The position numbers and the translations under genes are program-made. Shown piece after piece: positions 37,498 through 50,530 of a DNA stretch of 64,000 nucleotides. How positions within the stretch are numbered: the stretch's first letter is position 1; every line of letters starts with the position of its first letter. The notes below the pieces were generated by a model. That model had not been told where the DNA came from, did not search any database, and saw only the letters and a list, made by a program, of their open reading frames with translations. This DNA is from Ethanoligenens harbinense YUAN-3 (GTDB lineage: Bacteria > Bacillota > Clostridia > Oscillospirales > Ethanoligenentaceae). The DNA is taken from the NCBI RefSeq assembly GCF_000178115.2, contig NC_014828.1, positions 124,001-188,000 of the forward strand, written 5' to 3'.

Positions 37498-38004
37498 ATG
37501 GCCGCATTACACGAGATCCCGCCGGAGGAAATTTCCGGAAACGTATTTGACCTGATCGGCAAACAATGGACACTCATCACCGCCGGGACGGAGAGCCGCT
37601 TCAACACCATGACCGCAAGCTGGGGCGGCCTGGGCGTTTTGTGGGGCGGCCCGGCGGCATTCATTTTTGTGCGCCCGCAGCGTTACACGCTGGAATTTCT
37701 GCACCAAAACCCGAAATTCACGCTCAGCTTTTACGACGAAAGCCATCGCAAGGCCCTGAACCTGCTGGGCAGCAAATCGGGGCGCGACGGTGATAAGGTG
37801 GCGGAAGCCGGCCTGACCCCTGTGTTTGCCGACGGCACCACCTATTTTGAAGAAGCCGGGCTTGTCCTGTTCTGCGAAAAGTGGTATGAAAGCAAGATGC
37901 AGCCCAGCGGCATCAAAAAACCGACCGCCATCAACCCGTTCTATCCGCAAAAGGATTACCACCATATGCTCGTGGGGAAGATCACCAAAGTGCTGCAGGC
38001 GTAA
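37498..38004 (+). CDS. Flavin reductase-like FMN-binding protein
   Basis: This is a 168-residue split-barrel flavoprotein starting at ATG 37498 after GGGAGG at 8 bases; an in-frame start at 37414 is less likely. The FMN-binding core is RFNTMTASWGGLGVLWGGPAAFIFVRPQRYT followed by NPKFTLSFYDE and a C-terminal HHMLVGKITKVL. It probably binds FMN and reduces a small flavin-linked acceptor. Relatives are widespread in anaerobic Firmicutes without known substrate. Monocistronic, followed by a strong GC hairpin. Confidence 0.9.
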   Translation: MAALHEIPPEEISGNVFDLIGKQWTLITAGTESRFNTMTASWGGLGVLWGGPAAFIFVRPQRYTLEFLHQNPKFTLSFYDESHRKALNLLGSKSGRDGDKVAEAGLTPVFADGTTYFEEAGLVLFCEKWYESKMQPSGIKKPTAINPFYPQKDYHHMLVGKITKVLQA

Positions 38005-38057
38005 TGCCCGCCCGCATGCATCATGTTTCCGTTTGTCATCCCGCACACGCAGACACA

Positions 38058-38088
38058 AAGGGGCCGCGCCTTACTGGCGCGGCCCCTT
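38058..38088. terminator. GC-rich hairpin terminator between the flavin reductase and the 0.5-kb unit
   Basis: AAGGGGCCGCGCC and GGCGCGGCCCCTT pair perfectly around TTACT. On the minus strand it is followed by TGTGTCTG after the TTT of the stem end, on the plus strand by CTG. It can end transcription from both sides. Confidence 0.75.
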
Positions 38089-38565
38089 CTGCCGGAACGA
38101 TGGCGACTCATTATACCGATGACGCTGCGGACCGATTGCTTTTTTCAGCGCCGGAAGTCTGAACAAACGTGTGGTTGCTGGAGTGCCTGGCTCTTGCCAG
38201 ACAACAGTCATACCCAAACCCGTGTAGGGCTTTACGCACTGTACGCTTTACCGACCGAAAAAATGGCCTGTTTCCATCCGCCAAACCGCTGGTTTTCCAA
38301 CGAATCGCACCTTATTCGATTGCCTTTCAGATATCCATTGGTCGATTGCTTCATCCCTCCGTGCAAATGATCGCAGGGCCCGAACACAATCTCTTGCGCC
38401 AATGTTTGGAACATAAACGCTCCCTGTTGCAGCCGCCTCTGTGTGCTGCGAAACCAAACAACATCTGGCTGCCGACCTATCCGGTTACCTGCTGCGAATC
38501 CACTGAAACCTCCGAGCCCATTGGAATCGCCCCCTTTACTGGAGAATGTGTTGGTCTTTTGCTGT
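38058..38565 (-). ncRNA. Unexplained ~510-nt transcription unit (candidate structured RNA or decayed element)
   Basis: A near-consensus minus-strand promoter at 38572-38600 faces this stretch and the hairpin at 38058-38088 closes it. Base composition is less GC-rich than the neighbours. The only leftward frames are a 111-codon open stretch without start near its beginning, ending at 38232, with an internal ATG at 38414 (60 codons) preceded by GGGAG. A rightward frame at 38169-38594 (141 codons) has neither a ribosome binding site nor a known family. Local pairings such as GTCTGGC/GCCAGGC are visible on the RNA strand. It does not match tmRNA, RNase P, 6S or SRP RNA as I remember them. Confidence 0.35.
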
Positions 38566-38571
38566 GTCTAT

Positions 38572-38600
38572 ATGATAGCACGGCGTATGGATAATGTCAA
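38572..38600 (-). promoter_or_regulatory. Strong sigma-A promoter facing leftward
   Basis: Minus strand: perfect TTGACA (38595-38600), 17 bases, TATCAT (38572-38577). It drives nothing but the 0.5-kb unit at 38058-38565. Beyond it, 38601-38684 is AT-rich with no gene. Confidence 0.8.
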
Positions 38601-38738: not shown

Positions 38739-40400
38739 TTATTTTTCAAAAACCGCGCCGCGCGCACCCGAGGTGACCATGGCGGCATAGCGCTTGAGAT
38801 AACCGGTGAGCTGACGGTCCGGCGCATGGAACCCGGCCTGCCGCCGCTTCTCGATCTCCTCATCCGGCACCAGCAGCTCCAGTTTCCGGTTCGGGATATC
38901 CACCGAAATACGGTCGCCCTCCTGCACAAAGGCCAGCAGACCGCCCGCCGCCGCTTCCGGCGACACGTGCCCGATTGCCGCGCCTTTGGAAGCGCCGGAG
39001 AACCGCCCGTCGGTGATGAGCGCCACGCTGTTATCCAGCCCATAACCGGCCAGCGCGGAGGTAGGCGTCAGCATTTCACGCATGCCCGGGCCGCCCTTGG
39101 GGCCTTCATAGCGAATGACCACCACGTCGCCGGCTTCGATCTTGCCGCCGAAGATGGCGTCGCAGGCTTCCTCTTCGCTGTTGAACACCCGCGCGGGGCC
39201 TTCGTGCACCATCATATCCGGCAGCACCGCACCCTGCTTCACCACCGAACCCTCGGGGGCCAGGTTTCCGCGCAGCACGGCGATGCCGCCGTCTTTACGG
39301 TAGGGGTTGTCCAGTGTGCGGATGCATTTGCCATCGGCCGCGGGGGCTTTGGCGATGCGATCGCCCACCATCCCCTGCACGGTGACGGCATCGGTATGGA
39401 TGATGCCCGCTTTAGCCAGTTCCTTCATCACGGCCGCGATGCCGCCCACCTCGTCTAGGTCTTCAATATAGAATTCCCGGGTGGCGGGGCTGAGCTTGCA
39501 GATCTGCGGCGTGGTTTTGCCCAGCTCGTCAAAGATGCCCATGTCGATCTCCACACCGGCCTCATTGGCAATGGCGGTGAGGTGCAACACGGTGTTGGTG
39601 GAGCAGCCCAGCGCCATATCGCTGCGGATGGCGTTTTCCACCGCGTCTTTGTTGATGATGTCGCGCGGGCGGAGATTTTCGTTCAGCAGCTCCATGATGC
39701 GTTCGCCCGATTCCTTGGCCAGCCGGATGCGCGCCGACTTCACGGCCGGGATGGTCCCGGCTTTTGGCAGCGACAGGCCGATGGCCTCGGTGAGGCAGTT
39801 CATCGAGTTGGCGGTATACATGCCGGAGCAGGAGCCGCAGCCCGGGCAGACCTCGTTTTCGATCTCGCACAGCTCTTCGTCGCTCATCTTGCCGGCGGCA
39901 TGCGTACCCACGGCCTCGCACACGTCGTTGAAACCGATGCGCTCGCCGTTGTGGTGCCCGGCGTACATCGGGCCGCCGCTGATGAAAATAGACGGCAGAT
40001 TCAGCCGGAGAGCCGCGAGGACCATGCCGGGCACGATCTTGTCGCAGTTGGGGATGAAGACCACCGCGTCCAACGGATGCGCGGTGAGCATGACCTCGAT
40101 AGAATCGGCGATCAGCTCACGCGAGCAGAGTGAATATTTCATGCCCTGGTGGTTCATGGCGATGCCGTCGCACACGCCGATGGTGTTGAACTCAAACGGT
40201 ACGCCGCCGCCCGCCTGAATGCCCGCTTTCACCGCGTCTGCGATGTTCTGCAGGTGCATATGCCCGGGGATGTAGTCACTGGCCGCGCAGACCACCGCCA
40301 CAAACGGGCGCTTGATCTCACGGTCGGTCAGCCCCAGCGCTTTGAGCAGCGCACGGTGGGACGCCCGTGTGGGCCCTTTTTTAATCAAATCACTTCTCAT
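38739..40400 (-). CDS. ilvD: Dihydroxy-acid dehydratase
   Basis: This 553-residue Fe-S dehydratase makes the 2-oxo acids of valine and isoleucine. Cluster-ligand cysteines are in [11 protein letters not shown] and [34 protein letters not shown] at the start and [21 protein letters not shown] near the end are family marks. It starts at ATG 40400 with AAAGGGCGG upstream, 70 bases after lysS on the same strand. No other ilv genes are in the window, so it may be read with greA-lysS. Confidence 0.97.
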
Positions 40401-47957: not shown

Positions 47958-48097
47958 CCCGTCTTCCAGTCTGCGGCGATTTTACCCCTCAATTATATCG
48001 GCGTTCAGGCACTTTGTCAATGAAACGGGCATACAAATTGTAAATATTTGTATATTCAAAATCGGCATTGCCGGAAGAAGAACCGCGCACACTGCGC

Positions 48098-50329: not shown

Positions 50330-50530
50330 CCGTGTTTTTTGCACAGCGCAAATGGAACCGGTCGCACAGTGCAACGGAACATGCAGGCTGCGGGCAGCCT
50401 GTGCGGCGGCGTGCCGTGAACCATGTCAGGCGGGGAACCGAGCAGCATTAAGCGGATTTCGCCGGGCGCCGCAGGATTTCGTCCGCGCCTGCATGTTCGG
50501 GGGCACTGTGCGGCCATGTGCCGGGGGTTT
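50330..50530 (+). ncRNA. ffs: Signal recognition particle RNA (ffs/scr)
   Basis: The SRP core is unmistakable: GAACCATGTCAGG, then CGG-GGAA-CCG as the apical stem and tetraloop, then AGCAGCATTAAGCGGA (helix 8, Ffh site) at ~50417-50455. Flanking arms pair: GCGGCGGC with GCCGGGCGCCGC, ACATGCAGGC with GCCTGCATGT, GGTCGCACAGTGC with GCACTGTGCGGCC. Position before dnaX-ybaB-recR is the classical one. Exact ends are estimated: the start from the promoter, the end by pairing, just before the dnaX start. Confidence 0.93.

Follow-up and report, generated by a model that had tools for sequence, protein, structure and literature searches.

A putative ribosome-capped regulatory RNA behind ilvD in Ethanoligenens harbinense, with candidate relatives across the Oscillospirales

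Dual-function RNAs, among them RNAIII of Staphylococcus aureus, combine a strong promoter, a short open reading frame (ORF) near the 5′ end, and a long noncoding rest in about 500 nt, while sponge RNAs of the CsrB/RsmZ type evolve fast and repeat a short motif. Here, we describe a unit of ~510 bases on the minus strand of a 64,000-nucleotide stretch of the Ethanoligenens harbinense YUAN-3 genome (NC_014828.1, positions 124,001 to 188,000; hereafter the window, in whose coordinates all positions are given). Like the RNAIII-type RNAs, this unit of ~510 bases has a strong promoter, a short ORF near its 5′ end, and a long noncoding rest, but it has no Rfam match and its peptide is not clearly selected; a ribosome site and a final hairpin are present in the sequence. 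With the CsrB/RsmZ type it shares a fast-evolving family and a motif that is repeated in two genera, whereas the window RNA holds a single motif, no GGA is constant, and CsrA is absent from most member genomes. A third parallel is the STAB-SD of the cry3A mRNA, a strong Shine-Dalgarno (SD) sequence close to the start of a long transcript, which is proposed to park a 30S subunit and thereby block RNase J1 (PMC4113751). The window unit also carries a strong SD near its 5′ end that is complementary to the tail of the 16S rRNA, but this SD is followed, at normal spacing, by an AUG and a 14-codon ORF, and downstream there is no recognised gene. Leaders with upstream ORFs, finally, form a category defined in PMC11109978; the unit resembles them in its strong site and short ORF, and in the families f19, f20, and f24 the same arrangement stands ahead of a gene, but in the window a hairpin follows instead of a gene and the neighbour is convergent.

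We consider it possible, at a probability of roughly 0.4, that the window unit is a member of an undescribed Oscillospirales family of ribosome-capped, intrinsically terminated regulatory RNAs that act in trans. The strong promoter would make an RNA that opens with an SD/GAKTCC/AUG start site followed by a mini-ORF. Bound at this 5′ mini-ORF, a ribosome or 30S subunit would shield the RNA from a 5′ exonuclease (RNase J), the same bound ribosome would gate the RNA, with a start hairpin as the gate in those genera that have one, and the noncoding remainder would be the effector, acting in trans. A ribosome cap is proposed on the strength of the STAB-SD block of RNase J1 in Bacillota together with the RNase J gene that the window genome encodes, and gating because the start site of several genera can be concealed in a hairpin with the body of the mini-ORF. 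What can be read directly from the DNA is the promoter, the start site, the ORF, the terminal hairpin, the single copy, 5′ conservation, and recurrence across genera; transcription, translation, protection, gating, and trans action are what we infer.

The unit runs leftward from its promoter to a GC-rich hairpin, and the expected RNA extends from ~38565 to ~38055, where the start near 38565 is a predicted position and the exact 5′ end may differ. The promoter TTGACA-N17-TATCAT (38572 to 38600, minus strand; TTGACA at 38600-38595, TATCAT at 38577-38572) matches the consensus in 11 of 12 bases, with a 17-base spacer and an extended -10 TG. Only four sites in the 64-kb window have at least 11/12 promoter matches, and a Markov shuffle predicts 0.05 per strand per 64 kb. 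The other three very strong promoters lie at 48020 (-), 42753 (-), and 48098 (+), two of them perfect TTGACA-17-TATAAT and one 11/12. At the far end, an 11-bp hairpin (GGGGCCGCGCC-AGTAA-GGCGCGGCCCC, 38086-38060) is followed by the T-rich TTTGTGTC (38059-38052), which together form a probable terminator (38052 to 38086, minus strand). This hairpin is absent from the terminator-scan listing of the window, probably because its T tract is short, and for both reasons we call it a probable rather than a perfect terminator. The initial annotation had thus drawn the outline correctly, as regards the strong leftward promoter, the extent of ~510 bases up to the GC-rich hairpin, and a composition unlike the surroundings (GC 0.53 for the unit versus 0.593 for the window).

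The conserved start of this RNA is the ATG at 38521, within AAAGGGGGCGATTCCAATG (38537-38519), which the initial annotation had overlooked. It is preceded by the SD AAAGGGGG (38530 to 38537, minus strand), itself part of AAAGGGGGCGATTCCAATG, at 28-35 bases from the expected transcription start. By inspection, AAAGGGGG can form an 8-base pairing with one G-U with the 16S 3′ end of this genome (GGCTGGATCACCTCCTTTCT, with the tail CCTCCTTTCT). That the whole start motif is a perfect complement of the 16S tail was ruled out, since an extra base stands between GA and TCC; the motif is thus not simply the complement of that tail. The pattern AARGNNNNGAKTCCVATG has its sole match in the 3.0-Mb genome at the window start site, and the reversed control has 0 matches. 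From the ATG runs a mini-ORF of 14 codons, MGSEVSVDSQQVTG (38477 to 38521, minus strand; stop TAG at 38479-38477), which is predicted to be translated. Ahead of it lies the RNA leader (38522 to 38565, minus strand), which is expected to start within GACACAG and whose start region has similar counterparts (TATNNTNNNGNCACAG) in other members, and behind it a stretch of ~385 bases without a recognised gene (38091 to 38476, minus strand). The predicted fold allows the 5′ end GACACAG (38562-38568) to base-pair with the tail that follows the terminator hairpin (38052-38060).

When the unit was searched in 98 genomes, five matched at E ≤ 0.01, the window's own genome included. The best non-self match came from a genome of the same genus (G001), where the unit again lies directly behind ilvD. 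This sister species keeps the promoter, the start site, and the 14-codon ORF (MGLESIEESQNLTE), without an indel inside the ORF and with TGA as stop.

In several families of the order, we found a shared architecture: a strong promoter, AAAGG..GAKTCC-AUG, a mini-ORF that ranges from 2 to about 30 codons, then 0.3-1.0 kb in which no gene is recognised, and a terminator. In genus g6, all four genomes carry the unit, which measures about 360 bases and has a terminator; its ORF is 22 codons long. In genus g14, 7/7 genomes matched; the six measured units span 498-761 bases and all seven ORFs have 17 codons. Units of g93 measure 775-1052 bases and those of g134, in which the start motif is repeated, 397-677 bases. 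More members come from g41, g51, g105, g88, g57, g33, g146, and the metagenome-assembled contig L039, the unit end being unmapped in several of them; hairpin-terminated units in which no gene is recognised occur in g6, g14, g93, g41, g134, and L039. For a wider count, we searched 394 Oscillospirales genomes from 168 genera for TTGAC followed, after 46-106 bases, by the start motif. This pattern matched 63 genomes in 43 genera, compared with 7 genomes for the reversed control by our reading of the table. In a class-wide sample it matched 23/293 genomes, four of these 23 from the same order, and outside the Oscillospirales the start-cassette pattern is near chance. A -10 element with an ORF of at most 40 codons was present in 15 of the 30 automatically returned loci from the order and in 1/20 from outside it; with 20 hand-picked loci added, the order count is 28/50, and these counts are not independent, with several loci per genus. 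The first motif searches had yielded mostly ordinary ribosome sites. A GACACAG promoter pattern matched 65/394 genomes, with many ordinary genes among the matches, so that its counts are not member counts. Units in different genera may share common descent.

No described family accounted for the unit. Pfam gave no match at E ≤ 1 for five unit ORFs from both strands (0/5) and NCBIfam none for the three ORFs tested (0/3), in agreement with the earlier view that no known protein family is encoded. A search with the covariance models of 4227 Rfam 15 families, with the gathering score as cut-off, likewise found no family for the window unit, only low-scoring matches far below. At 26 loci of relatives (one unit being present in two), Rfam returned only SRP, 6S, and 16S, all outside the units. 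Among the papers listed by searches of the open PMC literature, none describes this RNA by its title or the opening of its abstract; as preprints and most subscription papers lay outside the scope, this does not prove absence. As far as literature and Rfam reach, the unit looks like a member of an undescribed RNA family.

The constant element from one genus to the next is the strong promoter together with the strong start site of a throw-away ORF. ORF length is constant within genera apart from a single 20-codon ORF in g93, and stop codons swap identity (TAG/TGA, TAA/TGA) yet remain stops, which argues for translation. Families f12 and f14 show pairing between the bases that precede the AUG and a segment ~22-32 bases inside the ORF, and this start-site pairing reached p < 0.05 at 11 of the 14 sites tested there (6 genera). 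With one representative from each of 15 genera, Fisher's combination gave p = 3e-5, versus 0.16 for an upstream control segment. Family f12 additionally has a stem-loop in which 2/6 pairs changed on both sides and 98.3% of cells are paired, as counted in 10 hand-picked sequences. This stem-loop (CCGATGGGCAYACYGATGRGTRTGG), with its two compensated pairs, is seen at L053, L055, L091-L098, L142, and L163. RNAalifold predicted double changes in 19 of 178 pairs for g14, in an alignment that extends beyond the terminator into the next gene, in 37 of 159 pairs for g93, with 80/1113 cells broken and no shuffled control, and in 0/95 pairs for g6, whose units do contain a conserved noncoding stretch.

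Several findings weigh against a ribosome-capped RNA family of this kind. Transcription of the window unit is a prediction from sequence. The cassette may be shared by convergence rather than descent, because similarity between families is limited to the 5′ part. The G001 contig stops 53 bases past the match, so that the 3′ part cannot be compared there; in its 3′ part, the window unit is without any homologue. The codon-position counts lack a third-position excess (115/153/125 in g14, 46/30/40 in g93, 12/13/12 in g6) and give no sign of peptide selection. Outside f12 and f14, start-site pairing reached p < 0.05 at 0 of the 12 sites tested. The window's own possible start-site hairpin (38494 to 38530, minus strand), which pairs GCGATTCC (38530-38523) with GGATTCGC (38501-38494) with one T-T mismatch, has p = 0.16 against shuffles and is suggestive only; the G001 counterpart, GCGGTTC with GAATCGC, would use other bases (p = 0.18) and is no more than suggestive either. 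The fold of the window RNA scores z = -3.47 when the terminator is included and z = -1.30 when it is left out, where 12/100 shuffles were equally good, so that it is not significantly structured. The "new structured RNA" of the initial annotation is therefore best kept in its first half: the order-wide architecture and the lack of an Rfam family make a new RNA the best of the three options it had offered, and "structured" is unsupported for this copy. A hammerhead-like reading of GAUGAGUCC was dropped as well, since a matching core was not seen by eye. The cassette precedes protein genes in f19, f20, and f24 and is thus not confined to free RNAs. On phage contigs, AAAGGGGTGAGTCCAATGG is the ribosome site of ordinary genes in 4/4 matches, three of them being one gene; the start motif is accordingly a working start site and not a mark of this RNA alone.

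Among the other explanations, the best surviving one, which we nevertheless regard as unlikely, is that the unit is the mRNA of a very small protein (14 residues from 38521 or 60 from 38414) with a long untranslated rest. The strong ribosome site fits an mRNA, as do the in-frame ORF and stop kept in G001, g14, g93, and g6, the recurring M[GV]xEE-like ORF beginnings, and a GGGAG site ahead of ATG 38414. However, substitutions in g14, g93, and g6 are not concentrated at third positions, and in several genera the ORF has just 2-4 codons (MGR, MYR, MKN, MK), too short for a peptide product; the two together argue against the peptide as product. The 60-codon frame (38414-38232, minus strand), within the ~385-base stretch, had been put forward as a small-protein gene. 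It exists, but it has no Pfam or NCBIfam family, the conserved start is a different ATG, and none of the relatives extends that far. The small ORF of this unit is the 14-codon one at 38521.

A leader of the attenuator type, with an upstream ORF, whose target gene decayed or disappeared and left the ~385 bases as a remnant, is an alternative that we judge to be quite improbable. In its favour, in f19 g21, f20, and f24 a few tens of bases separate the cassette from a following gene that, by eye, is secreted- or lipoprotein-like. In the window, however, the downstream stretch shows no Pfam trace, and the hairpin-terminated units of the five genera and L039 listed above, in which no gene is recognised, the conserved noncoding stretch in g6, and the covarying stem-loop in f12 speak against a decayed leader. 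Cassettes with a 3-35-codon ORF ahead of secreted/lipoprotein-like genes were noted at L164, L165, L168, L162, L172, L157, and L173, with several copies in some genomes.

Less probable again is a decoy (sponge) RNA, whose start motif would titrate ribosomes or an RNA-binding protein. The arrays speak for it: units of g134 hold 5-8 motif copies by a relaxed count that includes overlaps and 3-4 by a strict one, units of g105 have 3-4 start sites each (by eye), and some copies lack an AUG; the start motif also occurs in mRNA leaders. But one strict copy is present in the window RNA and at most one in 18 of the 19 other non-g134 units (G317 has two), and the motif occurs once in the window genome, so that no mRNA there offers the exact motif as a target. 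The protein classically titrated by sponges, CsrA, is encoded in the window genome but in only 6/25 member genomes and thus cannot be the general partner; with no constant GGA either, a CsrA sponge was ruled out as the general reading. In the multi-motif RNAs (L067, L069, L070, and L123 in g134; L145 and L179 in g105), many of the start-like motifs are followed by ORFs of 2-9 codons (MGR, MG, MKLARSWI), and some motif copies have no AUG. The weakest alternative, that a promoter arisen by chance precedes a decayed gene or the remnant of a mobile element, the latter likewise among the initial suggestions, agrees with the lowered GC and the ORFs without a family but is very unlikely for a unit that is single copy in the 3.0-Mb genome, has no repeats of at least 14 bases, gave no match in phage and plasmid sequence searches, recurs in the order, and has its promoter, ribosome site, and ORF conserved at the corresponding position in G001.

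Beyond the proposed ribosome-capped unit in the window, it is conceivable, if rather doubtful, that there is an order-wide class of noncoding RNA in which the conserved part is a translation start and neither a peptide nor a fold. An initiating ribosome parked on a throw-away mini-ORF would keep, gate, or activate such an RNA, with start-site arrays in some lineages and the module placed before secreted-protein genes in others. If the RNA family is real, a whole bacterial order, including rumen species, would carry a strongly expressed RNA that annotation overlooked because it has neither a protein nor an Rfam family. Such a family would also let one test, in a natural setting, whether parking a ribosome on a short ORF devoid of meaning generally stabilises or switches a regulatory RNA.

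In the window, the unit lies between ilvD (38739-40400, minus strand, PF00920) to its right and, to its left, a convergent flavin-reductase-like gene (about 37498-38004, plus strand, PF01613), which the terminal hairpin can also serve. Known small RNAs were seen near some of these loci: 6S RNA genes lie near two units (L039:5971-6156 and L089:682-871), which may be coincidence, and the window itself encodes a small SRP RNA (RF00169) at 50395-50481 on the plus strand, with 59 bits.
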